From positions 1 to 34,421 of the forward strand of contig JAFGNR010000092.1 in NCBI GenBank assembly GCA_016926915.1: DNA of 34,421 nt. Direction: 5' to 3'. The position numbers and the translations under genes were made by a program. Positions within the stretch are counted from its first letter, which is position 1. Each line of letters starts with the position of its first letter. The notes under the pieces were generated by a model. The model worked only from the letters and a program-made list of their open reading frames with translations, ran no database searches and was not told the origin of the DNA. Origin of the DNA: Anaerolineae bacterium. GTDB lineage: Bacteria > Chloroflexota > Anaerolineae > B4-G1 > SLSP01. Below are positions 678-33,785 of this stretch, in pieces.

Positions 678-836
678 CGCCGCCTGATTGCTGTTCATCC
701 AGGTGTCAGCCGCTGAGGTTGATCCCCCTTGAACGGAGGGGGGGCTCGGGGGTGCGTCAACAGCCACTGTCTTTCGGGGACAGTTTCACGCTGTCTCAGA
801 GTGGAAATGGTTAGAATCGACGAATTGACGCCGGAT
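678..836 (+). other. Rest of the rpoD upstream region, with two hairpins
   Basis: No credible gene was found here. CCCCCTT (724-730) can pair with GGAGGGGG (735-742). ACTGTC (766-771) can pair with GACAGT (779-784) across the loop TTTCGGG. Neither hairpin has a following T-run, so they are not called terminators. They may be part of a structured 5' leader if P1 transcripts read through to rpoD. Confidence 0.4.
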
Positions 837-12336: not shown

Positions 12337-12364
12337 TTGACATCAAAGGACCGGTTTGTATAAT
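12337..12364 (+). promoter_or_regulatory. Fully consensus sigma70 promoter of the long glycan operon
   Basis: TTGACA (12337-12342) and TATAAT (12359-12364) are both perfect and separated by 16 bp. The predicted start is about 12371. This is the strongest promoter in the window. It precedes a terminated leader and then a gene array that continues beyond the right edge. Confidence 0.85.
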
Positions 12365-12383
12365 GCCCACCAGGAATTGTGAA

Positions 12384-12446
12384 ATGATGCTGTGGGCCTT
12401 TCTGGGTAGCGCATCAAGCGTGCAATTCATGACCGGGGGCTGCTGA
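12384..12446 (+). CDS. 20-codon leader reading frame, possible leader peptide
   Basis: An ATG at 12384 opens a 20-residue frame that begins [12 protein letters not shown] and ends with GGC before a TGA. The ribosome binding site AGGA (12372-12375) lies 8 nt upstream, an ideal distance. The frame lies between the consensus promoter and the intrinsic terminator at 12462. The peptide is hydrophobic. The same bases can form a two-part stem: GAATTG 374-379 with CAATTC 423-428, and TGATGC 385-390 with GCATCA 411-416 (all +12000). Translation would therefore compete with folding. It could be a regulatory leader peptide, a tiny membrane-active protein, or chance. It has no recognised homologue and no run of one codon that would suggest amino-acid attenuation. 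Confidence 0.4.
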
Positions 12447-12461
12447 TGAGGGGGGCGCTGG

Positions 12462-12495
12462 GACTTCGACGTTGTACGATATTCGAAGTCTTTTT
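12462..12495 (+). terminator. Intrinsic terminator/attenuator ahead of the acyltransferase gene
   Basis: GACTTCGA (12462-12469) pairs with TCGAAGTC (12483-12490), with a possible inner CGT/ACG extension, followed by TTTTT (12491-12495). It ends 9 nt before the ribosome binding site of the acyltransferase gene. Transcripts from 12371 would therefore stop at about 125 nt unless the terminator is bypassed. This is the usual layout of a transcription attenuator. Confidence 0.75.
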
Positions 12496-12516
12496 GTATA
12501 TCTGAGGATCTCAGGA

Positions 12517-13272
12517 ATGGAGAACACAACGAAGATCAGTTCCCAAATCAGCGGCGGGCCCCGGTTGTACCTTCAACGCCAGGCCAGCGGCCTCTGGCGA
12601 TACGTGTGGGAGCAGGCGCTCCAAACGATCGTCGGATGGGTGCCCACGCTGCTTGGAATTGGTCTGCGCGCGGTGTTGTACCGGTTCATGCTCAAGATGG
12701 AGGGTGTGGCTGCTATCGAGAGCGGCGTCCGGTTGCGATTTGCCCAGTACATCAAGTTGGGCAACCGGACCTACCTCGATCAGGGAACGTACATCCACGC
12801 GTGTCCCCAGGGCGTCACCCTCGGAGAGGGAACTCTGGTCATGCATGGCGCGGTGCTGCACGTGTATAACTTCCGTGGTCTGCCGCATTCCGGTATTTAC
12901 GTTGGACGAGATAGTTTGATCGGCGAGTATACCGTGATTCGCGGGCAGGGTGGGGTCACACTTGGGGATCGCGTTTATACTTCACCCATGGTGCAGATTA
13001 TTGCTGTCAATCACGTCTTTGACGATCCGGAACGTCCTTTTTCTGAACAGGGGATCACTGCTCAGGGTATAATCATCGAGGACGATGTTTGGATTGGGTC
13101 CGGGGCGGTGATCACCGATGGGGTGCGCGTCGGGCAGGGAGCGGTGATTGCCGCCGGCGCGGTGGTGACACAGGATGTCCCAGCCCATGCGGTGGTGGGG
13201 GGGGTGCCGGCCCGCCTGATACGAAAGATCGATGGTACGGCGCCTGCATCACGGGGTGAGATTTTCTTCTAG
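12517..13272 (+). CDS. Hexapeptide-repeat (left-handed beta-helix) acyltransferase
   Basis: This 251-residue protein, probably a sugar O- or N-acetyltransferase, has a basic N-terminal part with a possible membrane-associated helix ([15 protein letters not shown], about 40-54). The parallel beta-helix runs from about 70 to 235. Hexapeptide repeats are visible in [35 protein letters not shown] and [19 protein letters not shown], ending in VPARLIRKI. The expected active-site His lies in [13 protein letters not shown]. This form resembles WbbJ/maltose acetyltransferase-like enzymes of polysaccharide clusters; the acceptor sugar is unknown. The ATG at 12517 is chosen because GAGGA lies 8 nt upstream. 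An upstream in-frame TTG at 12472 falls inside the terminator. It is the first long gene of the plus-strand operon. Confidence 0.87.
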
Positions 13273-13325: not shown

Positions 13326-14561
13326 GTGGTAGACGTGCAAACAGAGTGTGTTCAAGTGGGATCGGAGGCTTTGCTTTCGGTCGTCATTCCGGCTTACAAC
13401 GAAGAGGACGGCATTGCGGCCATCGTCGAACGCGTGTTGGCGGTCAAGCCCGCGTTGGCAGAGATCGGATTGGGCCTCGAGTTGCTCGTCGTCGACGATG
13501 GCTCATCGGATCGCACGGCGGAGATTGTGCAGCACTATGAGGATGTCGGTTTGCTTCAGCACAAACCCAACAAGGGGTATGGCGCTGCCATCAAAACCGG
13601 TTTCTGTGCCGGAAAGGGGGAATTTCTGGCTTTCCTGGATGCCGATGGCACCTATCCTCCCGAATCATTGCCGGACCTGTGCCGGGAGGCGCTGCAGGGT
13701 GCAGATGTGGTGGTTGGATCACGCCGCTCTGGTGCGGAAAGCCATATGCCGTTCGTGAGAAAATTGGGTAACTTTCTCTGGGCCAACCTGGTTACGTTAC
13801 TCAGCGGGCAGCGCGTTGTCGATCCGGCCAGTGGGATGCGCGTGGTGCGCCGTGAGGCCCTGGCACGACTCTACCCACTTCCCGATGGATTGAACTTCAC
13901 TCCGGTGATGAGCACCCGCACAGTTCACGAGGGCCTCAAACTGGTTGAAATCCCCATGCCTTATGAGGAGCGGAGCGGGCGTTCCAAGCTCAGCGTGGTG
14001 GAGGACGGCCTCCGCTTTCTGCGAACTATTCTCTGGACGGCATTATATTATAACCCTGCGCGCATTCTGGGGGGGATCGGCGTGACGCTTTTCGGCGCCG
14101 GTTTGCTGATCGGGCTGGTCATCGTGGGGATGCGCTTGTTCGGCGTCACGCGGTTGGGGCCGGTTGGGGTCACGGGGACCTTTGCGGCTGTGGTGTTGGG
14201 CGTAGCCGGTTTCGACCTTTTCGCCTTGGGAGCGACCTTCAATTACCTAGTAGCGCTGTTTCACGAAGACCCGGTGCAACCCGGGCTCTTTGGAAGGCCG
14301 ATTTTCGACCCCCCGTTGGACCAGCATTTCTGGTGGATGGGTCTCCTGGCCTCGGCGGCCGGCTTTGTTGTGGGGCTTGTAAGTTTGATTCTGGGTCTCA
14401 ACGGGTGGGCTATCGAGCGCTTGTGGCTCTATATGCTCGGGGGAACTATGCTGCTGTTGCTGGGGGTTCAACTGTTTGTATTCTGGGTCATCATGCGCGT
14501 TCTCGAAGAGCTGAGTCGCCGTGACGTGATGATTCAAGCAGATTTGGAGCCTCTGGCGTGA
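13326..14561 (+). CDS. GT2 glycosyltransferase, polyprenyl-phosphate-sugar synthase-like, with membrane domain
   Basis: This 411-residue protein joins a GT2 domain to a C-terminal membrane domain. The GT-A core shows SVVIPAYNEEDGI (18-30), VVDDGSSDRT (55-64), GYGAAIKTG and FLDADGTYPPE with the DAD metal motif at 105-107. Four hydrophobic segments follow from about 240, near 242-265, 280-303, 335-358 and 365-392. This resembles DPM1/GtrB-type enzymes that make polyprenyl-phosphate glucose or mannose. The product could feed the GT39-like enzyme at 4786-6279 (inference). The GTG start at 13326 has GGAGGA 6 nt upstream. Its TGA overlaps the GTG of the radical SAM gene (GTGA), which implies translational coupling. 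Confidence 0.88.
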   Translation: MVDVQTECVQVGSEALLSVVIPAYNEEDGIAAIVERVLAVKPALAEIGLGLELLVVDDGSSDRTAEIVQHYEDVGLLQHKPNKGYGAAIKTGFCAGKGEFLAFLDADGTYPPESLPDLCREALQGADVVVGSRRSGAESHMPFVRKLGNFLWANLVTLLSGQRVVDPASGMRVVRREALARLYPLPDGLNFTPVMSTRTVHEGLKLVEIPMPYEERSGRSKLSVVEDGLRFLRTILWTALYYNPARILGGIGVTLFGAGLLIGLVIVGMRLFGVTRLGPVGVTGTFAAVVLGVAGFDLFALGATFNYLVALFHEDPVQPGLFGRPIFDPPLDQHFWWMGLLASAAGFVVGLVSLILGLNGWAIERLWLYMLGGTMLLLLGVQLFVFWVIMRVLEELSRRDVMIQADLEPLA

Positions 14562-16240
14562 ACGAGACACCGTACAATCTGGGTCGCAAGACCCAACCTC
14601 GCGTGCCCGAACCGGATTTTCCCAATACAGATGCCTTGTTACGCGCGCAGATGGACGGGCGCCCATCGGGTGCTGTCGATGTGCTGTTGGTCAATCCTCC
14701 CGCGCCGGATGGCGGTATCTGGATTCGCAGCCAGCATCGTGTCGGACGCCGGTCCCGGGAAGGGATGATCTGGCCCCAGGTGAGTCTGGCGCAGATGGCG
14801 GCGTTGTTCCCGGATTACCGTGTGGAGGTGGTTGATGCGATACCCCACCGGATGGGATGGGAGGCGTTCGAACGTATCCTGGATGAGAAGCGCCCGCGCT
14901 ACTATGTTACACAAGTGACCGCGCCTACGTTGCAGAATGATATGTATGGCGTCTTTCTCGCGAGAGCACGCGGTGCGAAGACCATTGCCTTTGGCACTCA
15001 TGTGACGCCAATGCCGGCTTCTACGATGGAGTCCTATCCCGCTCTGGATTACGTCCTGCGCGGCGAGCCGGAGCTGGCATTACGAGAATTGGTGGATACG
15101 TTGGATGTTCTCCAAGGCCACAAAGAACCGCGCGGAAGAGATCTGAAGGCTGTCTCTTTGTGGCCGGACACCGAGAAGGCATTTGCCGAACGACTCTTGA
15201 GGTTATTCGCCGGAGCCGATCCCGGCTGGCAACCGGCGTGGTTGGATATTGAGAGTGGGACGGTGAAAACGGGCCTGGCGCGGATCAAGGGGCTGGTCTG
15301 GCGCAAAGAGGGACAGGTCATGGTGAATGCGGATCGGGGATTCATAAAGGATCTCGACGATCTTCCTCTGCCGCGCCACGAACTGCTGCCTCTGTCCAAA
15401 TACCGCGCCCCTCTCGTTGGCGGCCCCTATGCATTCGTTGTATCGAGCCGGGGGTGTCCTGCCGCGTGCCGGTTCTGCATCAAGCATGTTTCCTATGGCA
15501 GTTCGGTTCGCTATCGCTCGCCGGAACACGTCCTGGAGGAAATTCAGGATCTCGTCGATTTGGGCATTCGCAAGATTCACATGTATACGGATCTGTTTAC
15601 AGTGAGTCGGGATCAGGTGCTGGGAATCTGTGAAGGGATTCTCGAACGACAGCTTCCCGTGAAGTGGACTTGCAACAGCCGGGTGGACTATGTGGATGAG
15701 GAGATGCTGCACATGATGCGACGCGCCGGTTGTTGGATGATTTCGTGGGGTATCGAGTCGGCGGATCCTCAGATGTTGAAACGGATGCGCAAGGGGATCA
15801 CCCCCGAAAAAGTCGCGCGCGCGCTCCGGTGGGCAAAGCAAGCCGGGATTATGAATTGGGGATATTTCATTATCGGCTTACCCGGTGAGACTGAGGAGAG
15901 TATTCGCAAGACGATTGACTTCTCGAAACGGCTGCCGCTCGACCTGGTACTGTTTCACATCGCAGCGCCGCACCCGGGGACGCCCTTTTTCTTCGAGGTG
16001 GTAGAGAATGGCTGGTTCAGACCGGGGACCCGCTGGGAAGAGGTCGATATGGATCGTTCGACGGTGTTGGATTATCCCAATCTCAAGGCTGAGGATTTGG
16101 AGCGCTGGGCCAAGCGGGCATTCCGGGAGTGGGCCTTTCGCCCCGGTCCTATGTTGACTTACCTGCGGTTGCTGCTATCCGATCCTACCTTGTTGCGCTC
16201 GGCTGTGCACATTGGTCTGGAGACCTTGGGATGGGTATGA
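14558..16240 (+). CDS. B12-binding-domain radical SAM enzyme
   Basis: This 560-residue protein has a cobalamin-binding Rossmann-like domain at about 40-180 (DVLLVNPPAPDGG, LDYVLRGEPELALREL). The radical SAM domain has the iron-sulfur motif CPAACRFC, with C300, C304 and C307, and typical downstream stretches MISWGIESADPQMLKRMRKG and GYFIIGLPGETEES. About 60 residues between the two domains (190-250) look longer than usual. Known relatives carry out methylations at unactivated carbons, ring changes or lipid modifications, and the substrate cannot be read from sequence. Its GTG overlaps the stop of the GT2 gene, so the target may be the same lipid-linked sugar. It ends at 16240, where ATGA gives a possible coupled start for the next gene. 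Confidence 0.9.
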   Translation: MNETPYNLGRKTQPRVPEPDFPNTDALLRAQMDGRPSGAVDVLLVNPPAPDGGIWIRSQHRVGRRSREGMIWPQVSLAQMAALFPDYRVEVVDAIPHRMGWEAFERILDEKRPRYYVTQVTAPTLQNDMYGVFLARARGAKTIAFGTHVTPMPASTMESYPALDYVLRGEPELALRELVDTLDVLQGHKEPRGRDLKAVSLWPDTEKAFAERLLRLFAGADPGWQPAWLDIESGTVKTGLARIKGLVWRKEGQVMVNADRGFIKDLDDLPLPRHELLPLSKYRAPLVGGPYAFVVSSRGCPAACRFCIKHVSYGSSVRYRSPEHVLEEIQDLVDLGIRKIHMYTDLFTVSRDQVLGICEGILERQLPVKWTCNSRVDYVDEEMLHMMRRAGCWMISWGIESADPQMLKRMRKGITPEKVARALRWAKQAGIMNWGYFIIGLPGETEESIRKTIDFSKRLPLDLVLFHIAAPHPGTPFFFEVVENGWFRPGTRWEEVDMDRSTVLDYPNLKAEDLERWAKRAFREWAFRPGPMLTYLRLLLSDPTLLRSAVHIGLETLGWV

Positions 16241-16287
16241 AAACGCGTGCGACTATGTGTTCGAGTCTGGCCCGGATCGAGGTTGGA

Positions 16288-18987
16288 ATGTTCAAGAGCT
16301 GGTTCCGCATGTTGGAAATCGCTGTCCTGGCGGCGGTGCTCCTTGCACCGCTTAGCGCCGGCGCTCAATCTGATGACCTGGTGTGGAGTGACCCGGTCAA
16401 CCTCTCCCAATCGGGTGCGGCAAGTGCACCGGTCATCGCCGGCGGATCCGAGGGGAGCCTACAAGTCTTCTGGCAGGATCGTTTCGATGGGTTGGTGACG
16501 GCACGGTATCAGGCGGGGACCTGGTCTGCGCCGGTTCCGGCGCCTCTACAAAGAGTTGTCATTACCGAGGAAGCAGAACGGCTGGTAGCTGTAGGGACCA
16601 TGCCGGAGATGGCGGCAGACAGCAATGGGCGGGTGCATGCGTGGTGGCTTGGTAACCCTAATCCCGAGACGGGCTACCGGCCTTTATGGCATAGCTGGAT
16701 CGCCATTGGAGAGACAGTCTGGCTGGCGCCGGATCTCGTCGCCGAATCCGCAGTGGCATGGGATATGGTCTCAGATGAAGATGGGATGTTGCACATCTTC
16801 TACGTGCGGCCCGCGCATACCGAGCAGTTCCCGGCAGGCATCTACCACAAACGCTCCACAGATGGCGGCGCTACGTGGTCGACTCCCAGTTTGATCGCTG
16901 CTTCGGTCTATTTTCGCCTGTTGGAAGAGGAGGAGGCTTACGTTGTGGGCGCCGCCGACGCATTGGGAAACGTGTTTGTCGTATGGGATGATGCCCAGAC
17001 GGGTTTTTCTCATTATGCTGCTTCCACTGATGGCGGTGTTTCCTGGAATGCACCGGAACGTGTGGGGGATGATCAGGTTGAGGCGCGCCATGCGTTCATT
17101 GTGACGGACCGTCAAGAAGACGCGGCCGGAGAGGTCACGGGAAGCCAGATAGTGTTACTTTGGGAAGTCGTGCGGACGACGACCGTTTGTGCTGTCTACC
17201 AACAGACTGTAGAGGCGGCAGCCGGGGCCCCGTTGCCGACCTGGACGGATCCTATCCGCGTCCTGGACGATTTCGCGGTATGCGGCGAGACCTACGCGCT
17301 GCAACGGACAGCATCCGGCAATCCTATGTTGGTCAGTGGCGCGGGTGGAGATGGCCTGAGTGTCGTTCTGTGGAATGGCGTACAATGGTCGGAGCCCCAG
17401 CATCTGTTATTTGGCTTCTTCGAGCCGGTGACCCAGTCCGGGATTCGTCTGGGATCCTTGAATTTGACCGTATCGGGTGATCGGCTCGCCGTTGTAGGTT
17501 TGGGTGATGATCAGGAGGTGTGGGTGTTACAGTCAGAGCCTGAGCCTGACAGCTGGGCCTTTGCGCCTTCAACTCCCTGGACCGATCCCCAGCCGGTTCT
17601 GGCCGCATTGCTGCCCGATCTTCCGGTCCTGACAGTAGATGACGGAGGGACTGCACACGCTTTGTGGAGTCAGTCTGCGGCGCCCGGTGAGACCGGATAT
17701 GCTTTGTTCTATAGCCAGCCTGAGACTGTTGTCGGGGCCGCGGCGGAGGCGGCGTGGACCCAGCCTGTGGCGCTGCTCGATTCTCCGATCGGAAAAGCGG
17801 AACAGCCGGACTTACTGGAAGCCGGCGGGCAGCTGCATGCCGTGTGGAGCGGCGGTTTTGACGGCGAGATCTTGTACAGTCGTGCATTCGTCCGGGACGT
17901 CTACGCAGCGGATGGTTGGAGCATCCCCATGAAGTTGCACGCCGGTATCGCGCGCGACCCCCAGCTGGTCGCCGGGCCTGAAGGTCAGATTTTCGTGGCC
18001 TATGCAGTGCCTTTCAACGAATCTCGGGGCGTGTATCTCACCCGTTCCGGTGATGGTGGACAGAACTGGTCGGAGTCGTTTACGGTGTTCGATGCTGTCG
18101 CGGGCGGCTGGGTTTCATCCGGGCACGTGGCGCTGGATGTCGATGACCAGGGCGGGGTTCACGTCGCCTGGGTTCGGCTGCGATTGCCGGGCAATGGGCT
18201 TCCTGAAGGGGTCTATTACGCGTATTCCCAGGATGAGGGCAAGACCTGGACATCTCCGGTAGAGATTGCGGCGGGCGCCTATGACTGGCCTCAAGTGGTT
18301 GTCGCCGGGGAGACGGTGCACGTGCTGGCGGTGCGTGTGGATGGTGAAAGCGGCGTGTGGCAGCGGCGCACTGTGGATGGAGAAAGCTGGTCGCCTCTCG
18401 ACGTTGTACCCGGCGTAGGCGAAGTCCAGGGGCGCGCGGCGGCCGTTGCCGACGTTGCCGGCGGTGTGCATTTGGTCGCCGTGGGAGCCGGTGAGAGTGG
18501 TGATACGTCCCTCGTCTATACGGTTTGGCAAGAGGAACAGTGGCGTACCGTGGAGACGATTCGTCTGATGGGCGCGCACCAACATCAAGGCGCGGGGGCG
18601 TCGGCGGACGTGCGGAGTGACTTGGGGCGGTTGGACGTCCTTTTCGTCACGCATACGATCCCCGATGGTTCGCAGACTCCGCTGCATGAACGCACGCTCT
18701 GGTACGCGCGGCGCGAGATCGCGGCGATTGCCGGCATTCCTGAAGCCACGACTGCGGAGCCAGTGACTCCAACCGTAGCTGTGACTGCGGAGCCGACATC
18801 GCTTGCTCCCACACCCACGCCCCGTCCCGATGTCAATCCCAATGCTGTGACGGGGAGCATGCCGGCGATTTCTTTGGGACCTATCACGGTGCCGTTGTTG
18901 GCCCTGTTTGGCTTTGCCGGCGCCGGTGTGTTGGTGGTCGTCGCGCTGGCGGCGCGTTTCGCCAAGACTAGCGCGAGGCGTCGCTAG
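16288..18987 (+). CDS. Secreted, membrane-anchored BNR/Asp-box beta-propeller protein
   Basis: This protein has about 899 residues. A signal peptide (LEIAVLAAVLLAPLSAGA before QS) is followed by propeller repeats with at least four Asp-boxes: STDGGATW (near 189), STDGGVSW (245), SGDGGQNW (587) and SQDEGKTW (647). A Thr/Pro-rich linker ending PTPTPRPDVN leads to one membrane helix (LLALFGFAGAGVLVVVALAA) and a short basic tail. The fold is sialidase-like, but no F/Y-R-I-P motif was found, so an enzyme is doubtful and a glycan-binding or scaffold role is more likely. The start at 16288 has GAGG 5 nt upstream. A coupled ATG at 16237, overlapping the radical SAM stop as ATGA, is a real alternative that would add 17 residues. 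A smaller relative follows. Confidence 0.8.
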   Translation: MFKSWFRMLEIAVLAAVLLAPLSAGAQSDDLVWSDPVNLSQSGAASAPVIAGGSEGSLQVFWQDRFDGLVTARYQAGTWSAPVPAPLQRVVITEEAERLVAVGTMPEMAADSNGRVHAWWLGNPNPETGYRPLWHSWIAIGETVWLAPDLVAESAVAWDMVSDEDGMLHIFYVRPAHTEQFPAGIYHKRSTDGGATWSTPSLIAASVYFRLLEEEEAYVVGAADALGNVFVVWDDAQTGFSHYAASTDGGVSWNAPERVGDDQVEARHAFIVTDRQEDAAGEVTGSQIVLLWEVVRTTTVCAVYQQTVEAAAGAPLPTWTDPIRVLDDFAVCGETYALQRTASGNPMLVSGAGGDGLSVVLWNGVQWSEPQHLLFGFFEPVTQSGIRLGSLNLTVSGDRLAVVGLGDDQEVWVLQSEPEPDSWAFAPSTPWTDPQPVLAALLPDLPVLTVDDGGTAHALWSQSAAPGETGYALFYSQPETVVGAAAEAAWTQPVALLDSPIGKAEQPDLLEAGGQLHAVWSGGFDGEILYSRAFVRDVYAADGWSIPMKLHAGIARDPQLVAGPEGQIFVAYAVPFNESRGVYLTRSGDGGQNWSESFTVFDAVAGGWVSSGHVALDVDDQGGVHVAWVRLRLPGNGLPEGVYYAYSQDEGKTWTSPVEIAAGAYDWPQVVVAGETVHVLAVRVDGESGVWQRRTVDGESWSPLDVVPGVGEVQGRAAAVADVAGGVHLVAVGAGESGDTSLVYTVWQEEQWRTVETIRLMGAHQHQGAGASADVRSDLGRLDVLFVTHTIPDGSQTPLHERTLWYARREIAAIAGIPEATTAEPVTPTVAVTAEPTSLAPTPTPRPDVNPNAVTGSMPAISLGPITVPLLALFGFAGAGVLVVVALAARFAKTSARRR

Positions 18988-19004
18988 CTGCCGCGCGCTT
19001 CCAA

Positions 19005-19013
19005 TGGTATAAT
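19005..19013 (+). promoter_or_regulatory. Extended -10 promoter directly at the start of the second BNR gene
   Basis: TGGTATAAT (19005-19013) combines a TGn extension with a perfect -10. No good -35 is present, as expected for extended -10 promoters. The start site would fall at about 19019-19020, on the A of the ATG at 19020, so a leaderless mRNA is predicted. This would be an internal promoter within the long operon. Confidence 0.6.
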
Positions 19014-19019
19014 ATTCGT

Positions 19020-20450
19020 ATGTTTACCCAGATCAAGGTAGGTCTACTCGTTTCACTCCTTGCCGGCGGTTTGTTGTTTCCGCCGGTAAGTAGCATGCAA
19101 AACCTCTCGCCTGATTGGAGCGACCCTCAGCTGATAGCCAGGGTCGACGGGCAACTGGCGGTTTCCACGATTGCTCTCGTTGCAGACCGCGCCGGTCAGC
19201 TGCATCTTTTCTATCCTTCAAGTCCAGACGAAATGACTGCCGATGGGATCGATTATGCCCGTTGGGATGGCCGTGGCTGGTCACATCCGGTTAACATCCT
19301 GGTGTCTGCCAGCGGCAACGATCTGTCTCATGTGCAAGCGGTCATCGATTCGGAGCAATTCATTCACCTGATCTGGCAAGATGGCAATAACACCCTGCGC
19401 TACGCGAGCGCACTCAGCACGGCGGCAGACCAGCCTCAGGCCTGGTCGTTCTCCGAATCTCTTGCCGGTGGGGTGTTGGGCGCGCATCTCATCAGTGATG
19501 GGTTGGGGAATCTTTTCGTGGCGTATAGCGACGCCACAGCCGGCGGGCGTGGCCTCACGCTGACCGCCTCGGCGGATGGCGGCGAGCAGTGGTCGGCGCC
19601 GTTTGCGGTTGCGTCTAGCCACGGGTTTGACAGCGTGATAGGGCAGGTGCGTCTCGCTTCGGGCGGGAAAGGTCAACTTCACGTCGTCTGGACCGAGTAT
19701 AAGATTCCTGACGGTTGGCCACCCTTGGGGGTCTTCTATACCAGATCATCTGACGATGGGGCCGCCTGGGCCGCGCCGGAACGGATCGCCGACATAGATC
19801 ACGGTCAAGTCGGTATTGCGGCGGCGGATGATCAGGTCCACCTGATATGGCGCAGCACGATTGGCGGCGACGGCACTTTCCATCAGTGGTCACTTGATGA
19901 GGGCGAGAGCTGGTCTGCATTCGAACTCCAGGATGATCGCGGGGGATTCTCCGGCCTGCCGTCGTTGGTTTGGGACAGCCGGGGCGTGTTACATTACCTG
20001 GTGGGATCCGGTTTTGCCGGTGCGTGGACTGCCGACGCCGGCACGGCGTACTACGTCGATGTAGCAGGCTATGAGCTACGACGGGGTATTGGTCAAGATA
20101 CCCGGTGGACGCAACCTGAACGGGCTGTTATGGAAATCGTCAACGGGAATCAACTCCATGTGATCTTCGAGACCGGCTTCAATCGCCTTTGGCATACATT
20201 CACCACCGTGGATGCACCGGCAATCCCTTCGGAACCTCTGCCCACGGCGATCCCGACAGCAACGCCCGTAGCAACGCCCACCCCAGAAGACGCTGATTCA
20301 ACAGCGTTGCCTGCCTATGAACTCGATGATGCGACGCCGCTGGATGCATCTTACTCCGGCGCCGACTGGACTTCTGTTATTGGGCCGGGCGCTGCAACGT
20401 TGTTGGTGGTCTCGATTGTGGTGTGGCGTTCTACGCGCAGGAGGCGATAA
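19020..20450 (+). CDS. Second secreted, membrane-anchored BNR/Asp-box protein
   Basis: This 476-residue protein has a signal peptide (VGLLVSLLAGGLLFPPVSS). The propeller has Asp-box-like motifs at SADGGEQW (near 182), SSDDGAAW (242) and SLDEGESW (290). A Pro/Thr linker (PTAIPTATPVATPTPE) is followed by one C-terminal membrane helix (GAATLLVVSIVVW) and an RRRR tail. The overall plan is that of the preceding protein at about half the length, so they look like relatives after duplication and divergence. No sialidase R-I-P motif is seen. The likely role is binding or organising extracellular glycan at the cell surface, inferred from neighbours. No ribosome binding site is present; the promoter at 19005-19013 makes the mRNA leaderless. 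The exporter gene begins 4 nt after its stop. Confidence 0.8.
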   Translation: MFTQIKVGLLVSLLAGGLLFPPVSSMQNLSPDWSDPQLIARVDGQLAVSTIALVADRAGQLHLFYPSSPDEMTADGIDYARWDGRGWSHPVNILVSASGNDLSHVQAVIDSEQFIHLIWQDGNNTLRYASALSTAADQPQAWSFSESLAGGVLGAHLISDGLGNLFVAYSDATAGGRGLTLTASADGGEQWSAPFAVASSHGFDSVIGQVRLASGGKGQLHVVWTEYKIPDGWPPLGVFYTRSSDDGAAWAAPERIADIDHGQVGIAAADDQVHLIWRSTIGGDGTFHQWSLDEGESWSAFELQDDRGGFSGLPSLVWDSRGVLHYLVGSGFAGAWTADAGTAYYVDVAGYELRRGIGQDTRWTQPERAVMEIVNGNQLHVIFETGFNRLWHTFTTVDAPAIPSEPLPTAIPTATPVATPTPEDADSTALPAYELDDATPLDASYSGADWTSVIGPGAATLLVVSIVVWRSTRRRR

Positions 20451-20453
20451 CCG

Positions 20454-21341
20454 GTGAAGGATCCCGTGAAATCCCGTCCATTTGCGGCAGCGGCGATGGA
20501 CAATGTCCTGAATCCGGAAGGTTTCTCCGGTGTAGTCATCCAACCATCTCGCGGGTGGGGAGGACTGCCGCTTGGCGAGGTTTGGCGCTTTCGCGAATTG
20601 GTTTTCTTCCTCGTCTGGCGTGATCTGAAAGTCCGCTATCGCCAGAGCGTGTTGGGGGCTTTGTGGATCATTATCCAACCTCTGGTTACCATGGCTGTTT
20701 TCTCCTTGATTTTCAACCGTTTTCTGGGCATTGATTCCGGAAACGATGTGCCCTATCCTGTTTTTTCTTATACAGCGTTGTTGCCGTGGATGTACTTCTC
20801 CAACTCTCTGTCGCGCTGTTCGAACTCCCTGGTGGGGAATGCGGCCCTGATTTCCAAAATCTATTTCCCGCGTTTGATCGTTCCTCTGTCAGCTGTCTTG
20901 CCCGGTCTGGTGGATTTCCTCATTGCGTTTGTAATTCTGCTCGGAATGCTGCTGTATTATGGCATCTGGCCCGGGTGGGCCATCTTAACCCTGCCTTTGC
21001 TGTTGTTGCTGGCAATGATCACCACACTGGGTGTGGGGTTGTGGCTTTCGGCGCTCAACGTCCAATACCGGGATGTGCAATATATCACGCCCTTTTTGAT
21101 CCAGGTCTGGATGTATGCAACGCCTATTATCTATTCGACGTCGCGGATTCCTGAACGCTGGCTCTGGCTGTATAATCTGAACCCCATGGTGGGGGTTGTG
21201 CAGAGTTTCCGCCGTATTCTGCTCAACGATCAGAGTTTTGGCGGTGTCAGCTGGCCCTCCCTGGCGATCGCCCTTGTCATTCTGGTCTCCGGTCTGATCT
21301 ATTTTCGCCAGACCGAACGCATCTTCGCCGACGTGGTGTAG
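20454..21341 (+). CDS. wzm: ABC-2 type polysaccharide exporter permease (Wzm-like)
   Basis: This 295-residue inner-membrane protein has about six membrane helices and a cytoplasmic N-terminus. The family stretch RELVFFLVWRDLKVRYRQSV leads into LGALWIIIQPLVTMAVFSLI. Later LNVQYRDVQYITPFLIQVWM and a NLNPMVGVVQSFRRILL segment are typical of O-antigen and teichoic-acid ABC permeases. With the ATPase encoded 7 bp downstream it would export a lipid-linked glycan. The GTG at 20454 lies 3 nt after the stop of the BNR gene and has AGGAGG upstream, a strong ribosome binding site. Confidence 0.9.
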   Translation: MKDPVKSRPFAAAAMDNVLNPEGFSGVVIQPSRGWGGLPLGEVWRFRELVFFLVWRDLKVRYRQSVLGALWIIIQPLVTMAVFSLIFNRFLGIDSGNDVPYPVFSYTALLPWMYFSNSLSRCSNSLVGNAALISKIYFPRLIVPLSAVLPGLVDFLIAFVILLGMLLYYGIWPGWAILTLPLLLLLAMITTLGVGLWLSALNVQYRDVQYITPFLIQVWMYATPIIYSTSRIPERWLWLYNLNPMVGVVQSFRRILLNDQSFGGVSWPSLAIALVILVSGLIYFRQTERIFADVV

Positions 21342-21348
21342 GTGAGAC

Positions 21349-22590
21349 GTGAGCGCCGTTGCCATTCGTTGTGAGAAAATCGCCAAACGTTATCGTATTG
21401 GCGTGGGCCGTCACGATACGCTGCGCGACCAGATCGCAGAGGGGGTTTCGCGACTCTTTCAGCCTGCTAAAGGCGGTGAAGCGCCGGGAACCCTGTGGGC
21501 GCTCCGGGATGTTTCTTTCGAGGTTCAAGCCGGCGAGGTGGCCGGCATCATCGGCCGGAATGGCGCCGGAAAAAGCACCTTGCTCAAAATCCTTTCGCGG
21601 ATCACTGAACCGACCCAGGGACGGGCTGTGTTGTTCGGTCGCGTGGGTTCTCTTCTAGAAGTGGGCACGGGCTTTCATCCGGAGCTTACCGGTCGTGAGA
21701 ACATTTTCTTGAATGGTGCGATTCTCGGCATGCGTCGCGAGGAAATCCAGCAGAAGTTCGACGAAATCGTAGCATTTTCGGAAATCGAGCGTTTTCTCGA
21801 TACGCCGGTGAAGCGTTATTCGAGCGGTATGTACGTGCGGCTGGCTTTCGCAGTCGCCGCGCATCTGGAACCGGAAATCCTGTTAGTCGATGAAGTGCTG
21901 GCCGTGGGTGACGTCGCGTTCCAGAGGAAGTGCCTGGGGAAGATGGGAGAGGTCGCCGGCGAGGGACGCACGGTGCTTTTCGTAAGTCACAATATGGCGG
22001 CGGTGCAGGCGCTGTGCACGCGCGGTATTTTTCTGAGGAAGGGCACTATCTGGTTTGATGGCTCGATCAATGATACGATCTCGACCTATCTTCGCACGTT
22101 GGAAGAGATCCCTGGTCAGGACCTTGCGGAGCGCGTCGAGCGGCGCGGCAAGGGGGCGCTCCGTTTGACGCGGGTGGAGATCTCTGAGGGTGAGACAATG
22201 CCGGCGGGTATTCTGGCGGCAGGCCGTCCGGCGCAGTTTTCTTTTTACCTTACCGGCACACGTTCCGATCTGACGTGCACCTTTACGATCTACGACCAGT
22301 ATGGAAAGCCGGTGGCGAATTTCAACAGCGCGACGTTAGGCCCTGAGGACGTCTATGATGCTGCATTTGGTCCAAGGATTACGTGTGAGCTGGATGAGCT
22401 GCTGCTGGCGCCTGGACGTTATCGCATCAACGTTGCGCTGACTGCGGGAAATGAACTGGAAGATCATCTCGAAGGCGCGGCTTTCTTCGACGTCGATCCC
22501 GGTCAGCTCCGGGGGCGGCCGGTACATGCCCACTCGAAATATGGAGTAGTGACGATGCCGCACCGGTGGAAAGTTCCCCTTGATTTGTGA
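21349..22590 (+). CDS. wzt: ABC polysaccharide exporter ATPase with C-terminal Wzt domain
   Basis: This 413-residue ATPase is the partner of the permease just upstream. The Walker A motif GRNGAGKST is at 69-77, the signature YSSGMYVRLAF starts at 157, Walker B is ILLVDE (177-182) and the switch His is in VSHN (about 212-215). The segment GSLLEVGTGFHPELTGRENI is characteristic of polysaccharide exporters. From about residue 255 a beta-rich Wzt_C-type domain follows. In known systems this domain reads the modified non-reducing end of the glycan before export. That would fit tailoring by the acyltransferase or pyruvyltransferase-like proteins here (inference). The GTG at 21349 has AGGTGA upstream, and its stop overlaps the next GTG (GTGA). 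Confidence 0.92.
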   Translation: MSAVAIRCEKIAKRYRIGVGRHDTLRDQIAEGVSRLFQPAKGGEAPGTLWALRDVSFEVQAGEVAGIIGRNGAGKSTLLKILSRITEPTQGRAVLFGRVGSLLEVGTGFHPELTGRENIFLNGAILGMRREEIQQKFDEIVAFSEIERFLDTPVKRYSSGMYVRLAFAVAAHLEPEILLVDEVLAVGDVAFQRKCLGKMGEVAGEGRTVLFVSHNMAAVQALCTRGIFLRKGTIWFDGSINDTISTYLRTLEEIPGQDLAERVERRGKGALRLTRVEISEGETMPAGILAAGRPAQFSFYLTGTRSDLTCTFTIYDQYGKPVANFNSATLGPEDVYDAAFGPRITCELDELLLAPGRYRINVALTAGNELEDHLEGAAFFDVDPGQLRGRPVHAHSKYGVVTMPHRWKVPLDL

Positions 22591-23726
22591 GGTATGAAGT
22601 GTGGGATAGGGTGCGTCGCGGGTATTCGAGGCTTCGCCGCCTGGCAAACAAGGAGCGCTCTCCGGAAATGACAGCGTTGCCGTTGGGGGAGGCGTGGCGG
22701 CGTCTGGTTGCGACCGCCAATCGCCGCCAATTGTCATCTCCTCCCGTTCGCGTGGATATGCAAGGCGCTCCTGATGCCCGGCAGCGGTTCAGTTGGACTG
22801 CGGCGCTTAGCGCCCTGGGCGCCGAAGTCTGTCACAGAACCTCGGGAGATGCCCGCGAACTGGCCGCGCTTCGCCAGCTGTATGATCGGATCATCGATCA
22901 GCGTGGCGTGTGGCAAATCCCGGTAAACCGCGTGGAACACGTGATGATCGGGTATACACTTCTGTATCTTGAGGAGATGACGGGTGAATCGCGTTACGGG
23001 CGCGCCGCTGCTTGCTTGGTCGAGATGTTGAACGACTATCCACGGGCCGCCGATGGTTCGCTGCCGTATTTGCCGCATACCCAGCTGGTGCTCGTGGATA
23101 CACTGGCGATGCTCTGCCCGTTCTTGGCGCGGTATGCAACCATGCATCACGTTGCAACGTTGTTGGACCTGGCGACGGCGCAGCTGCGCACCTTCGTGGC
23201 TCACAATGTGGATGCAGAGACGTCGCTGCCTTACCATGGCTACTACGCGGATGGCCCCCGGTATTTGGGGCTGCATGGTTGGGGACGGGGCACGGGGTGG
23301 TATTTGCTGGGCTTGATCGATACGTTGGTTGAATTGCCGGCGTCGCATTCGGCCCACGCCGATCTTGCCGCGGTATTCGCGCGTGCTGCGGAGACGGTGC
23401 GGGACTGCCAGCGACAAGATGGCCACTGGCACTGGGCGATCCTGCACCGCGCCGATCACACTGATAGCTCGACGACCAGCCTAATAGGCTACAGTCTTAT
23501 GCGCGCCATCCAGGCAGGGATACTGGACGACGGCTTTCTACCGACCGTGACACGGGCGGTTCAAGCATTGGTGGGGGTCACCCGCATCGATGGCATGCTC
23601 GATGGCGCGCTGGGGGAGTCGCGTGGCCTGGGAAAATATCCGCAGCAGTATGGCCCGCGTCCCTGGTTGCAGGGCTCGGCGACAGCTCTGGGGGCGCTCT
23701 ATCTTCAAGAAACGAGAATGACATGA
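22587..23726 (+). CDS. GH88/GH105-like unsaturated glycuronyl hydrolase
   Basis: This 379-residue protein resembles YteR/YesR-type hydrolases with an (alpha/alpha)6 barrel. Recognisable stretches are LVLVDTLAMLCPFLARYA, with D171 at the position of a known catalytic Asp, GWGRGTGWYLLGLIDTL (231-247), GHWHWAIL and TDSSTTSLIGYSLMRA. Family enzymes remove 4,5-unsaturated uronic acids from glycan ends by hydration. No polysaccharide lyase is encoded in the window, so its use inside an export and synthesis operon is unclear; it might trim, edit or recycle the product. No signal peptide is seen, so it looks cytoplasmic. The GTG overlaps the wzt stop and its own TGA overlaps the next ATG. Confidence 0.78.
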   Translation: MRYEVWDRVRRGYSRLRRLANKERSPEMTALPLGEAWRRLVATANRRQLSSPPVRVDMQGAPDARQRFSWTAALSALGAEVCHRTSGDARELAALRQLYDRIIDQRGVWQIPVNRVEHVMIGYTLLYLEEMTGESRYGRAAACLVEMLNDYPRAADGSLPYLPHTQLVLVDTLAMLCPFLARYATMHHVATLLDLATAQLRTFVAHNVDAETSLPYHGYYADGPRYLGLHGWGRGTGWYLLGLIDTLVELPASHSAHADLAAVFARAAETVRDCQRQDGHWHWAILHRADHTDSSTTSLIGYSLMRAIQAGILDDGFLPTVTRAVQALVGVTRIDGMLDGALGESRGLGKYPQQYGPRPWLQGSATALGALYLQETRMT

Positions 23727-24958
23727 CTGCCAACATCGTGATCACCGGCATTACGGGATTCCAGAACCGTGGCGTCGAGGCCATCGTGGCGCCCACTGTG
23801 CGACAGTTCCGCCAGCGGCGTACGGACATCAAGATTCAGGTTCTTACATATACTCCTGATTACGACACGTATCGCCTGCCCGAGGCGGACGCCCACTTCA
23901 TCGCGAATGATTTTCGATTGCCCAACACCAGCCTTACTTTCCGGGCGCGACGGTGGCTGGCCCGTATCCGTGGCAAGCCTCCGGCGCCTCAGGAGGGACA
24001 AGCCAATGCGCTGCTGCGCGCGGCGAATCTGGTGTTGGCGTCGGGAGGAGATGTGTTCAGCTCCGAATATGGCAACTTGCCCTGGCATTTGCAACCCTTG
24101 CGCTATGCCCAGAAACACGGCGTCCCCGTCGTGTTCTGGGCGCAGTCTATCGGCCCTTTCCATACCGGTGCAGAAGCGGCGACCTGGCTTGAGGTGGCGC
24201 AGGCATCACCTCTGATTACCGTCCGTGAGTCGCTCACCTATGCCTACGTGACCGGCCAGTTGGGCCTTTCTGGGGATCGCGTGCACCTCACGGCCGATCC
24301 GGCGTTCCTGCTTGAACCTCCGGAGCTGGGGGTTATTGCCAGGGTGCTGGAGTCTTACGGCATTCCCCGTGAGGGTCCACTTATTGCTCTCTCGATTAGT
24401 CAAGGGATCAGCGGCTTCTCAGGCACGGATGCGGACTCACATTTCGAAGCCTGGCGCAAGGTCATTCTCTCGTTGTTGGATCAGACGGAGGCGCACTTAC
24501 TGTTGATCCCGCACGTTCAGACGGGAGCGCTGCGCAACAACGATCGCCTGATTGTAACGGAGATGGCGCGCAGTTTGGAGTACCCTGCCCGGTTGCACAT
24601 TATAGGTGGGGAGCATTCGGCCAGCACATTCAAGGGGCTGATCGGCGCCTGCGATTTCGTGATCGCCGAGCGGATGCACGCGGCCCTGGCCGGCCTATCT
24701 AGTGGTGTGCCGACCATGGTGGTCGGTTACAGCGTCAAAGCACAGGGTATCATGACCGATATGGTCGGCTCGGACCTGGTCGACGCTGGTTGGGTGACGC
24801 CGGTCCAGACGTTCGTAACCGAGCCCACCGTGGAGCAATGCATCCTTCAGCATTGGGAGGCGCGGCAAGTCGTTCGTGAGCGTCTCGCGACGTCTCTACC
24901 TGAGACGCGCGCCCGGGCTCTGGCGAATTTCGATCTCCTGGAGACGGTGTTGTCGTGA
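23723..24958 (+). CDS. Polysaccharide pyruvyl transferase family protein
   Basis: This 411-residue protein resembles the CsaB/WcaK family (PF04230). N-terminal NIVITGITGFQNRGVEAI, LASGGDVFSSE (about 105-115), FWAQSIGPF, TVRES, TADPAF and the C-terminal ERMHAALAGLSSGVP (316-330) are the usual landmarks of this GT-B-like fold. Biochemically studied members move pyruvate from PEP to sugars to form ketals; others may act as glycosyltransferases. A pyruvyl ketal would make the glycan acidic and could be the end-modification recognised by the exporter (inference). The ATG overlaps the stop of the GH88-like gene (ATGA). Confidence 0.85.
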   Translation: MTANIVITGITGFQNRGVEAIVAPTVRQFRQRRTDIKIQVLTYTPDYDTYRLPEADAHFIANDFRLPNTSLTFRARRWLARIRGKPPAPQEGQANALLRAANLVLASGGDVFSSEYGNLPWHLQPLRYAQKHGVPVVFWAQSIGPFHTGAEAATWLEVAQASPLITVRESLTYAYVTGQLGLSGDRVHLTADPAFLLEPPELGVIARVLESYGIPREGPLIALSISQGISGFSGTDADSHFEAWRKVILSLLDQTEAHLLLIPHVQTGALRNNDRLIVTEMARSLEYPARLHIIGGEHSASTFKGLIGACDFVIAERMHAALAGLSSGVPTMVVGYSVKAQGIMTDMVGSDLVDAGWVTPVQTFVTEPTVEQCILQHWEARQVVRERLATSLPETRARALANFDLLETVLS

Positions 24959-24985
24959 ACTCCTTGTATCCGGGAGGCAGGGAGT

Positions 24986-26059
24986 ATGTCTGATTTACCC
25001 ACGGTTGGCATTCGTTTTTTCCCTAACCTGACCAGATCCCAGAACCCTTATTGGCAAATCCTCCGGTTGGGTCTGGAGGCGCGCGGATTCCGGTTCGTGG
25101 CCTCGGATGCGCTCGAATTTGGCCGGCGGTGGCTGTATAGATACCGTCGCGAGATCGATGTTCTCCATTTTCACTATATTCAGCAGTTCTATGCCTATGA
25201 GGGAACGCGCGCGCGACTCGTGTGGGTCGCGCGTTTTGCCAGGAATCTGTTGATTGCGCGTCATCTGGGATACCGCACGGCATTCACGCTGCACAATCTC
25301 CATCCCACATACTCCCTGGCGCCTTCTTGGGTCGATTATCTAGGGCATTGGGTTGCCGCCAACCTTACCGACAGCGTGATAGTTCACTGCGCTGCGGCGC
25401 GCCGGGCCTTGGCGCGGCGATTCGGGCGCCGGCGCAACGTTTTTGTCATCGATCATCCTCACTACATCGATGCCTACCCGAACACGCTTTCGCGGGAGGA
25501 GGCCCGTTCGCGCCTGGGGATAGCTTTGGACCGGCGTGTTTTTTTGTTTTTTGGCGGTATTCGTCCCAATAAGGGCATCGAGACGTTGGTGGAGGCCTTT
25601 CAAGCGCTACCTGATCCTGAGGCGCTGCTGCTGATTGCCGGCAAGCCGTGGCGTCCGGCAACGTATGTAGAGCAGCTGCAGGCGATGGCGAAGGCCGATG
25701 CCCGTATCAAGATTTTTGCCCAATTCGTGGAAGATGAAGAGATCCAGGTCTTTATGAATGCCGCCGACGCCATTGTGCTGCCGTTCAAGCGGATTTTGAC
25801 TTCCGGTTCTGCTTTTCTGGCGCTGTCCTTTGGCGTCCCGCTGGTGGCGCCGGAAATCGGCTGTCTGCCGGAGCTGGTGACGGAAGGTGTGGGATTTGTT
25901 TACGCTCCCGATGAGCCGGGGGCGTTGCTTGAGGCCCTGAAGCGGTGTCGAAGCGTAGACCTGGCGGCGCTGCGCAACCGGGTACGTCTGCGGGTCGAAC
26001 CCTTTACGGCGGCATGGGTGGCAGAGCAGCTCATAGCCGCGTATCAACTGCCGGCATAG
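24986..26059 (+). CDS. GT4-like glycosyltransferase (GT-B fold)
   Basis: This is a 357-residue GT-B glycosyltransferase. The N-terminal half contains VLHFHYIQQFYAYEG and TAFTLHNLHPTYS. The C-terminal half begins VFLFFGGIRPNKGIETLVEA, typical of the GT4 donor-binding domain, and includes ADAIVLPFKRILTSGSAFLA and GVPLVAPEIGCLPE. The usual E-x7-E pattern of GT4 is replaced by the TSGS-type loop, as in some mannosyl- or glucuronosyltransferases of capsule clusters. Donor and acceptor are not known. GGGAG lies a few nt before the ATG at 24986; the gap to the upstream gene is 27 bp. Confidence 0.85.
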   Translation: MSDLPTVGIRFFPNLTRSQNPYWQILRLGLEARGFRFVASDALEFGRRWLYRYRREIDVLHFHYIQQFYAYEGTRARLVWVARFARNLLIARHLGYRTAFTLHNLHPTYSLAPSWVDYLGHWVAANLTDSVIVHCAAARRALARRFGRRRNVFVIDHPHYIDAYPNTLSREEARSRLGIALDRRVFLFFGGIRPNKGIETLVEAFQALPDPEALLLIAGKPWRPATYVEQLQAMAKADARIKIFAQFVEDEEIQVFMNAADAIVLPFKRILTSGSAFLALSFGVPLVAPEIGCLPELVTEGVGFVYAPDEPGALLEALKRCRSVDLAALRNRVRLRVEPFTAAWVAEQLIAAYQLPA

Positions 26060-26077
26060 GCCAGGCATCGCGACATC

Positions 26078-27232
26078 ATGACTTCAAATGTCCTGTATGT
26101 AAACACTCCTGCGGCTATCGGAGGGGCGGAGGTTAGCCTTTTGACCTTGATGCAATCGTTGGATGGGCGACCTTACAAACCCTTGCTGGTTACCACTGAG
26201 GGTATGTTGCCGCAGCGAGCCCGCGCCCTTGAGATTCCTGTGTGGGTGCAGGAATTCCCCTGGTTCAGCCGCCGCCGGCCCTGGGAGTACCTGGGGGCGA
26301 TTTTACGCCTGGCCTGGATCATACGCAAGTACCGTGTGGCCCTGGTGCATACAAACTGTCCGCATAGCTTACATTATGTGCGCCGTGCTTGTCGCCTTAC
26401 CGGCGCGCCGTATGTCTCCCATGTGCGAGATTCTCGTGATGCCTGGTTCTTCTCTCAAAACGTGCAGGCGCTCAATGAGGCCCGCCGGGTTATTGCTAAT
26501 TCGCAAGCCGCCGCCGGCGTGTTTGTGTCCGCCGGTATTGATGCGGGGCAGATAGAGGTGATTTATAATCCCATCGACTTCATAAGTTTCGCTGCGGTTA
26601 CCGAAGCGGATGTGGGTCGGTTTCGGAAAAGTCAGGCGTTGTCACCGGAACTGTTTCTCGTTGGACTGGTTGGGCAAATTCAGGAGACCAAAGGACATGA
26701 AACGCTGATTCAAGCTATTCCGATGATTGTGGAGGCAGTCCCGAATGCGAAATTCCTGATCGTTGGGGCGGCTTTCGATACGGTCGCCCAGGGTTTCGAA
26801 TTACGTATTCGTCAACAGGTCGTTGAAATGGGCCTTTCTCCGTATGTGTCATTCCTTGGATTCCGCGATGATGTTCCGGTGGTCATGCGGTCTCTCGATC
26901 TACTGGTGGTTCCTTCCTGGAATGAGGCGTTTGGACGGGTTGTCGTCGAAGGCCTGGCTGCTGGCTGTCCGGTGGTTGGTACGCGAGCCGGCGGTATTCC
27001 TGAGATTATCACCGATGGCATCCATGGGCTGCTGGTCTCCCAGCGCGATCCTATGCAACTGGCCCAGGCGGTCATCAGGTTGGCGAAGGATCGCGTTTTG
27101 TACGGAAACATGAGACAGCTAGGACTGGAGCGGGCGCAGGCATTTGCTCCACAGCGTCACGCGGAGAGGATTCAATCCCTCTATGACGAAGTTCTTGGTC
27201 GAACGCGCCTTCAGGAGCCGCAGAAGAAATGA
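26078..27232 (+). CDS. GT4 family glycosyltransferase
   Basis: This is a 384-residue classical GT4 enzyme. An N-terminal glycine-rich acceptor loop (NTPAAIGGAEVSLLTL) is followed by IEVIYNPIDF at mid-protein. LVGLVGQIQETKGHETLIQA opens the donor domain, and the E-x7-E motif lies in EAFGRVVVE (E283, E291) with GTRAGGIPEII after it. It would add one sugar, probably from a nucleotide donor, to a lipid-linked glycan at the cytoplasmic face of the membrane. The linkage is not predictable. The last codons overlap the next gene (ATGA at 27229). Confidence 0.9.
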   Translation: MTSNVLYVNTPAAIGGAEVSLLTLMQSLDGRPYKPLLVTTEGMLPQRARALEIPVWVQEFPWFSRRRPWEYLGAILRLAWIIRKYRVALVHTNCPHSLHYVRRACRLTGAPYVSHVRDSRDAWFFSQNVQALNEARRVIANSQAAAGVFVSAGIDAGQIEVIYNPIDFISFAAVTEADVGRFRKSQALSPELFLVGLVGQIQETKGHETLIQAIPMIVEAVPNAKFLIVGAAFDTVAQGFELRIRQQVVEMGLSPYVSFLGFRDDVPVVMRSLDLLVVPSWNEAFGRVVVEGLAAGCPVVGTRAGGIPEIITDGIHGLLVSQRDPMQLAQAVIRLAKDRVLYGNMRQLGLERAQAFAPQRHAERIQSLYDEVLGRTRLQEPQKK

Positions 27233-28431
27233 AAATCGCGATCTTTCACAATCTTCCCAGCGGGGGCGCCAAACGCGCTTTGTATGAATGGGTGCGGCGT
27301 CTGGCGGAACCCCACGTGTTGGGCGCCTTTTCCTTGAGCACCGCGGAGCAGGCGTTTCTCGATATTCAGCCCTATGTCCGTGAACATCGTGTTTTCGACT
27401 TTTCTCCTCTGCCTATATTCCGAAGTCCCTGGGGCCGGCTCAATCATGTTCAGCGTTGGCGTGATTTGGGACGCCTGACGCAAATAGGGCGTGAGATTGC
27501 AGAGACGATCAATGCTGGCGAGTATGACGTGGTCTTTGCACACGCCTGCATGTTCACCTTCATCCCGACAGTCATGCGTTACCTTCAGATTCCTTCGGTT
27601 TACTATCTTCATGAACCGTTTGGCCCCACGTTCACACGCGAATTCGACCGCCCTTATCTCGAGCGGCATGGCATCCGGCGTTACCTTCATCGCCTGGCGC
27701 CCATTGCGGCATTATACAAAAACCATCTGGAACGGATTCGCCGCCAAAGCGTGGATAGGACAACCCTGTTGTTGGCCAATTCCGAGTTCACCCGACAGGA
27801 GATTATGAGAGCTTATGGAGTCGCTGCCCCTGTTGTCCGCTGTGGCGTGAACTTCGAGAGTTTCAAGCCGGCTCCTGGCGGCGTGCACAGTAATTACGTG
27901 ATTTCCGTGGGGGCTTTGACGCCGAGGAAGGGGTTCGATTTCTTGATTCGCAGCCTGGCCCTGGTCGAAGCGTATGAGCGTCCGGTTCTGAAACTTGCCT
28001 GCAATGGTCAGATACCGGAGGAGCGGGCGTATATCGAGGCGTTGGCAGCTGCCCATGGCGTAACGCTAGATATTCAGCTGAACTTGAGTACTGAGCAGCT
28101 GGTTCAGGCGTATAATGACGCCCTTTTTTGTCTGTATGCGCCGGTCAAGGAGCCTTTTGGGTTGGTTCCTTTGGAGGCGATGGCGTGTGGTAAAGCCGTT
28201 GTGGGCGTTGCCGAAGGCGGGGTATTGGAGAGCGTTGTCGATGGCGAAACGGGTATCCTCACACCGCGTGATCCGGCGCAATTTGCCGAGGCTGTGTGCA
28301 CGTTACTGCGTGACCGGGAGCTCCGCGATCGTTATGCTTCCCGGGGCCGCGTCTATATCCAGGATAGGTGGTCCTGGGAAGATTCGACAGCATTGATTGA
28401 ATCCCATTTGCGTGCGGTAAGCAGCGGATAA
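27229..28431 (+). CDS. GT4 family glycosyltransferase
   Basis: This 400-residue GT-B enzyme begins MKIAIFHNLPSGGAKRALYE, with the glycine-rich acceptor loop. YYLHEPFGPTF and LLANSEFTRQEI precede the donor domain, which starts at YVISVGALTPRKGFDFLIRS. The E-x7-E motif is EPFGLVPLE (E308, E316), followed by ACGKAVVGVAEGGVLE. The ATG overlaps the stop of the preceding GT4 gene, so both are probably made together and may act on successive sugars of one repeat unit. After its stop comes the longest gap within the array (99 bp). Confidence 0.9.
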   Translation: MKIAIFHNLPSGGAKRALYEWVRRLAEPHVLGAFSLSTAEQAFLDIQPYVREHRVFDFSPLPIFRSPWGRLNHVQRWRDLGRLTQIGREIAETINAGEYDVVFAHACMFTFIPTVMRYLQIPSVYYLHEPFGPTFTREFDRPYLERHGIRRYLHRLAPIAALYKNHLERIRRQSVDRTTLLLANSEFTRQEIMRAYGVAAPVVRCGVNFESFKPAPGGVHSNYVISVGALTPRKGFDFLIRSLALVEAYERPVLKLACNGQIPEERAYIEALAAAHGVTLDIQLNLSTEQLVQAYNDALFCLYAPVKEPFGLVPLEAMACGKAVVGVAEGGVLESVVDGETGILTPRDPAQFAEAVCTLLRDRELRDRYASRGRVYIQDRWSWEDSTALIESHLRAVSSG

Positions 28432-28530
28432 GAGCTACTTCGCCAAAAGTCCATTACGTGTTAAACTTGATGAAGGTTCGGGCCGCGACGGCCAGAACAT
28501 AACCGCTCATTTCGCTTTACAGGATGGCCG

Positions 28531-29628: not shown

Positions 29629-29634
29629 CGTGTC

Positions 29635-33706: not shown

Positions 33707-33783
33707 AGTTGTTTTGCTGCGGTTCCCCGAAGCGCTTTAACGGCGCGCGCAAGGGCTCGCTCAGGGCCAGGTGGAGGATGTAG
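33703..33783 (+). CDS. 26-codon basic reading frame between the polymerase and GT2 genes
   Basis: An ATG at 33703 overlaps the polymerase stop as ATGA, has AGGA about 7 nt upstream, and opens a 26-codon frame ending in TAG at 33783. The next GTG starts 2 nt later. The peptide begins MKLFCCGSPKRFNGARKG and is very basic. It may be a coupling peptide that keeps ribosomes moving between two genes, a remnant of a degraded gene, or chance. No family is recognised. Confidence 0.3.
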   Translation: MKLFCCGSPKRFNGARKGSLRARWRM

Positions 33784-33785
33784 GC

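Follow-up and report, generated by a model that had tools for sequence, protein, structure and literature searches.

What controls the transcription of a long glycan operon whose first gene follows, at short distance, a consensus promoter, a small open reading frame and a terminator-like hairpin? We addressed this question for a 34,421-nt stretch of DNA (the window), which is the entire contig C360 of G000, a metagenome-assembled genome of Chloroflexota (Anaerolineae type; completeness 88.7%); because the window is the whole contig, the 3' end of the operon lies beyond view. The first-pass annotation of this locus had proposed an attenuator or antiterminator, possibly responding to translation of a leader peptide, ahead of a one-way run of genes. 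The one-way run is borne out: from 12517, the start of the hexapeptide-repeat acyltransferase gene (hexAT), every gene up to the window edge lies on the plus strand (Table 1), with no promoter-like site of at least 10/12 matches in the intergenic gaps of this array and no terminator downstream that is stronger than the one in the leader. The hexAT-GT2-rSAM cassette is conserved in about 30 loci, from Chloroflexota and from some bins labelled Acidobacteria, and the genes behind it differ among loci. Orthologues of hexAT share 50-78% identity, with 311 confirmed stretches of varied identity, and the named close matches come overwhelmingly from Chloroflexota/Anaerolineae. Upstream, two NTP_transf_5 (uncharacterised nucleotidyltransferase) genes, at 3313-4443 (minus strand) and 11109-12326 (plus strand), flank a first, minus-strand glycan cluster; the latter ends about 10 nt upstream of the promoter at 12337.

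Table 1. Features of the leader and of the operon behind it, in window coordinates.
Feature	Position	Strand	Basis or remark
Consensus sigma-70 promoter TTGACA-16-TATAAT	12337..12364	+	12/12 matches
-35 TTGACA; 16 nt; -10 TATAAT	12337-12342; 12359-12364	+	sequence scan
Predicted transcription start	12371..12373	+	placed from the -10 position, ~7 nt after it; coincides with small-ORF AGGA
Predicted stem GAATTGTG/CGTGCAATTC around ORF start	12374..12428	+	folding
20-codon open frame	12384..12446 (stop at 12444)	+	sequence
Predicted intrinsic terminator, GGGACTTCGA / TCGAAGTC hairpin + T5	12460..12495	+	2 in window vs 0.25 per shuffle
First-gene ribosome binding site GAGGA	12504..12508	+	sequence
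Hexapeptide-repeat acyltransferase (hexAT), first operon gene	12517..13272	+	Pfam Hexapep 7e-16
Family 2 glycosyltransferase (GT2), conserved neighbour	13326..14561	+	hexAT-GT2-rSAM cassette
B12-binding-like radical SAM enzyme (rSAM), conserved neighbour	14558..16240	+	hexAT-GT2-rSAM cassette
Rest of array: BNR-repeat proteins, ABC export pair with Wzt C-terminal domain, GH88, pyruvyltransferase, glycosyltransferases, GNAT, deacetylase, Wzy	16129..34421	+	contig end cuts array

The promoter is present just as the first-pass annotation described it, and it stands well above chance: 0.005 promoters of such quality are expected per dinucleotide shuffle of the window, and genome-wide G000 holds 15 perfect TTGACA-16-TATAAT sites versus 0 for the reversed control pattern. 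Most of these 15 stand closely before a gene, one of them before a tRNA and one before a T-box leader. The T-box leader, L128 (G000:C228, ~1227-1560, minus strand), lies directly 3' of its perfect promoter and has a clear terminator. As a separate observation, 13 of the 15 sites fall on the minus strand of their contigs despite a presumably arbitrary contig orientation, the numbers being small.

The hairpin-plus-T5 terminator that had been placed just before the ribosome binding site is likewise confirmed. Its hairpin (12460-12492) has 8-10 bp and a loop of 11-13 nt, and the T5 run (12491-12495) ends 8 nt upstream of the GAGGA (12504); of this class, counted as at least 8 bp, 4 G-C pairs and T5, the 34 kb contain 2 where a shuffle yields 0.25. 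A generic terminator scan misses the hairpin because its loops are limited to 8 nt. Promoter and rho-independent terminator both lie upstream of the start codon of the first gene, which is the architecture of an attenuator; the start is backed by the orthologues, whose short N-termini ending ISGGP/INGGP place it at 12517, so that the hairpin belongs to the 5'UTR and is not coding. A TTG at 12472, if used as the start, would make the hairpin part of the gene; it was rejected since the orthologue N-termini fit the ATG at 12517. The other strong hairpin-T run of the window (644-678, plus strand; 11 bp, GAGAGCACTGG...CCAGTGCTC) is oriented toward a sigma-70 gene at 891; since it runs into the 5' end of the minus-strand ORF 3-767, the true start of that ORF is doubtful.

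On balance, we favour a reading in which a strong promoter of housekeeping (sigma-70) type drives an operon for a glycan polymer and an intrinsic terminator in the 5'UTR throttles it. RNA polymerase would start near 12371, part of the transcription would terminate at ~12495 to give a ~125-nt RNA, and the remaining transcripts would extend into hexAT and the genes that follow, with the terminator setting a low, possibly condition-dependent, level of read-through. We infer from the sequence that termination occurs and lowers expression, and the short leader would probably stop most transcripts early. In favour of this model, both promoter and terminator are well above chance and a leader terminator is used elsewhere in G000, at the T-box leader L128. 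The terminator may be leaky since its stem has only 4-5 G-C pairs and its loop is long, and it bears no sign of selection, as in all 39 orthologous leaders a hairpin-T4 terminator is missing from the 350 nt before the start. An unlikely alternative is that the leader encodes an independent ~125-nt small RNA, or that the hairpin does not function as a terminator, which would make the leader a 5'UTR like any other. Consensus promoter and terminator do form a self-contained unit, the folding of the whole leader is ordinary (z -1.0), and the leader is not conserved; however, as no further promoter shows up in the scan from the terminator to hexAT, read-through is left as the simplest source of operon mRNA.

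We judged conservation of the leader at family level and wider, using the 39 orthologous leaders and 47 other genomes of the order. Consensus promoter and terminator occur together in 0/39 of the orthologous leaders, and even the near orthologues L112 and L113, with first genes 73-78% identical, have nothing alignable upstream of the start. With the leader as query, BLAST searches of 40 and of 48 genomes returned only chance G-rich matches of 16-33 nt, and the 47 other genomes of the order gave no real match to the leader and no relative of the small ORF. None of the orthologous leaders keeps the stem, the small ORF or the terminator; at family level, this is the outcome that the first-pass annotation, with close relatives in mind, had itself named as speaking against its proposal. 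On these comparisons, the promoter-ORF-terminator layout is private to G000. The leader also heads an exopolysaccharide operon, as does the EAR/epsC RNA of the Bacillus eps operon, but Rfam, EAR included, gives nothing relevant for it either at the gathering threshold or at E<=10.

Control of a different kind appears in the relatives. In Escherichia coli, long sugar-coat operons are expressed with the help of JUMPstart/ops (JUMPstart is Rfam RF01707), a hairpin immediately before GGCGGTAGCNTG at the heads of polysaccharide operons that goes together with an RfaH-type protein; RfaH acts on long polysaccharide operons in gamma-Proteobacteria. Among 298 genomes of the class of G000, 117 encode an RfaH-like NusG paralogue (E<=1e-15). 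The best NCBIfam match of the paralogue is RfaH (TIGR01955) at 105 bits, below the cut-off of 144.5 and outscoring UpxY, LoaP and NusG, and among proteins of solved structure its best match is E. coli RfaH. Two members of the operon family, G008 and G017, each encode such a specialised NusG-like protein, and in both its gene precedes a BNR gene homologous to that of the window; in G008 it lies downstream of GT2 and rSAM, whereas in the window the rSAM and BNR genes abut without a paralogue.

In G008 and G017, hexAT and GT2 are preceded by a hairpin element that the two genomes have in common. With a covariance model of this hairpin (R1), copies were detected close behind the paralogue in other genomes of the class, and their common core is GGCGGAGC (consensus GGCGGAGCNYGCC). 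This core was defined on 31 paralogue loci, 14 of which carry it within 450 nt downstream. In a test set of 80 further paralogue loci, fetched after the core had been defined, it occurs downstream of the paralogue 24 times in sense versus once in antisense and 1.1 times in shuffles (Fisher p 1e-7), and upstream of it 13 times in sense versus twice in antisense (Fisher p 0.0025). At the copies flanking a paralogue, where alone it was scored, a hairpin ending beside the octamer reaches a score of at least 18 in 45% of cases versus 2.3% of shuffles; several octamer-bearing hexAT leaders have no obvious stem.

Copies away from the paralogue precede genes for ABC-2 export permeases, O-antigen ligase, sugar epimerases, GT2 and a hexAT orthologue (names read from translations), and several other matches to the pattern, inside coding sequence, are probably due to chance. 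Among leaders of hexAT orthologues, 12/40 contain GGCGGAGC in the 200 nt that precede the conserved N-terminal motif (11/41 in an earlier count that depended on the start), with 0 in antisense and 0 in an equal-length coding control; as some of the 12 are close relatives of one another (Longilinea group), the 12 do not count as independent events. Longilinea arvoryzae KOME-1 combines the octamer in its hexAT leader (L037) with the paralogue (G331:C1:2069709). L050 has the paralogue first, followed by the hairpin, GGGGCGGAGCGTGCC and hexAT. The paralogue is present in 10/12 genomes whose hexAT leader carries the octamer versus 11/28 whose leader lacks it (one-sided Fisher p 0.012), a modest association in incomplete genomes. 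The exact 17-nt pattern is weak alone, with 22 matches versus 10 for the control across the 298 genomes, and is found in 15/117 genomes with the paralogue versus 4/181 without (Fisher p 3e-4). Anaerolineae loci with GGCGGAGCNYGCC include L178, L185, L189, L050, L251, L253, L261, L265 and L286. The promoters before the element in L211, L210 and L209 (G008, G017), and partly in L113 (G021), have in common a sequence resembling TTGC(A/T)AA(A/T)TCTAAC..TTGGTTATAAT. In these promoters the inverted repeat TAACCA/TGGTTA overlaps the -10, with a CTGGAATA/CTGAAATA box directly behind; an activator or repressor may bind there.

The resemblance of the element to the E. coli system is close. In E. coli NZ_CP013662, JUMPstart reads CTGGTAGCTGTAAAGCCAGGGGCGGTAGCGTGC and lies 69 nt upstream of the first gene after galF. 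The consensus GGCGGAGCNYGCC of the relatives resembles E. coli ops (GGGCGGTAGCGTGC) less one T, copies of the L178 type (GGGCGGAGCGTGCC) being the E. coli core less one T, and near the paralogue the element usually stands behind a hairpin, as in the E. coli CTGG..CCAGGGGCGGTAGCGTGC. The two are alike in position, octamer and RfaH-like protein partner, and it is from position, partner and resemblance that the element would seem to act as a recruitment signal for the paralogue. They differ in that the element of the relatives lacks the T of GGTAG, has other stems and, on ten paralogue loci, gives no Rfam JUMPstart match at E<=1; moreover, it is found in Chloroflexota, while a published description has RfaH largely confined to Proteobacteria (PMC7593976). 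In the open-access literature, we found no report of such an element in Chloroflexota.

Antitermination by a NusG paralogue is therefore likely to govern this glycan operon family in the relatives, and to that extent the antitermination suggested for the locus probably holds; it probably does not extend to the window leader, as neither protein nor element is found in the G000 assembly. A search for a nearby NusG-paralogue gene, which the first-pass annotation had put forward as a check, found none: the assembly encodes a single NusG, R1 has no match in it, and the window leader itself holds no GGCGGAGC-type or R1 match and nothing like the element of the relatives within 4 mismatches, ops being matched only at 4 mismatches. 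We lean towards a scenario in which the Anaerolineae operon family is governed by a JUMPstart/ops-like system and GGCGGAGCNYGCC, often with a hairpin before it, recruits an RfaH-like paralogue in the leaders of glycan operons including hexAT orthologues, and in which G000 would be a derived case that has lost both protein and element and relies on its consensus promoter and leader terminator.

That an unseen NusG paralogue or another factor nonetheless carries polymerase past this and later terminators, in a regulated manner, is rather improbable. A terminator in the leader of an operon of more than 20 kb is the layout of LoaP targets, the dfn and mln operons of Bacillus (PMC12691694), the operon heads of the relatives do have an ops-like element and a NusG paralogue, and a paralogue could be missing from an assembly that is 88.7% complete. 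However, G000 as assembled has one NusG and no paralogue, the place that the paralogue occupies in G008 and G017 is empty in the window, and the leader contains neither an ops-like element nor, although it shares with LoaP leaders the long biosynthetic operon and the intrinsic terminator, a candidate recognition hairpin.

Classical attenuation, with translation of the leader peptide governing formation of the terminator, is very improbable. The 20-codon ORF with its AGGA (12372-12375, 8 nt upstream of the ATG) exists as had been noted, but barely exceeds chance, shuffled leaders showing a comparable Shine-Dalgarno sequence and ORF in 3.0% of cases and random pieces of the window in 1.2%, and the frame is most likely incidental. 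Since transcription is expected to start ~7 nt after the -10, the AGGA would be among the first nucleotides to be transcribed. The stem that can form over the ORF exists on paper (z -2.3 for its region alone), but the whole leader folds with z -1.0 only and the stem is not conserved. GAATTGTG (12374-12381) and the terminator-loop segment GTTGTACG can each pair with CGTGCAATTC, and the minimum free energy fold switches to the competing pairing in transcripts ending at 12480-12484; however, this pairing is equalled in strength by 9-16% of controls and reaches the loop of the terminator, not its arms. Duplex energies and constrained folding gave no pairing of an upstream segment with an arm of the terminator above chance level, and the terminator folds whether a ribosome is modelled at the ORF start, over the ORF or at its stop. 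With chance-level pairing, a terminator in all modelled ribosome states and no Rfam family, the proposed peptide-coupled switch is left without structural support. The leader shares with trp/his attenuators a small ORF before a terminator, but has no antiterminator, no run of any one amino acid and no regulatory codon run.

Taken by itself, the leader of the window adds a further case of a long glycan operon headed by a promoter and a terminator. Its relatives offer a testable recruitment site for NusG paralogues in a phylum for which we found none described. The presence in Chloroflexota of a GGCGGAGC element laid out like E. coli JUMPstart would imply that this pause-and-recruit signal either has a deep ancestry or was reached by convergence.
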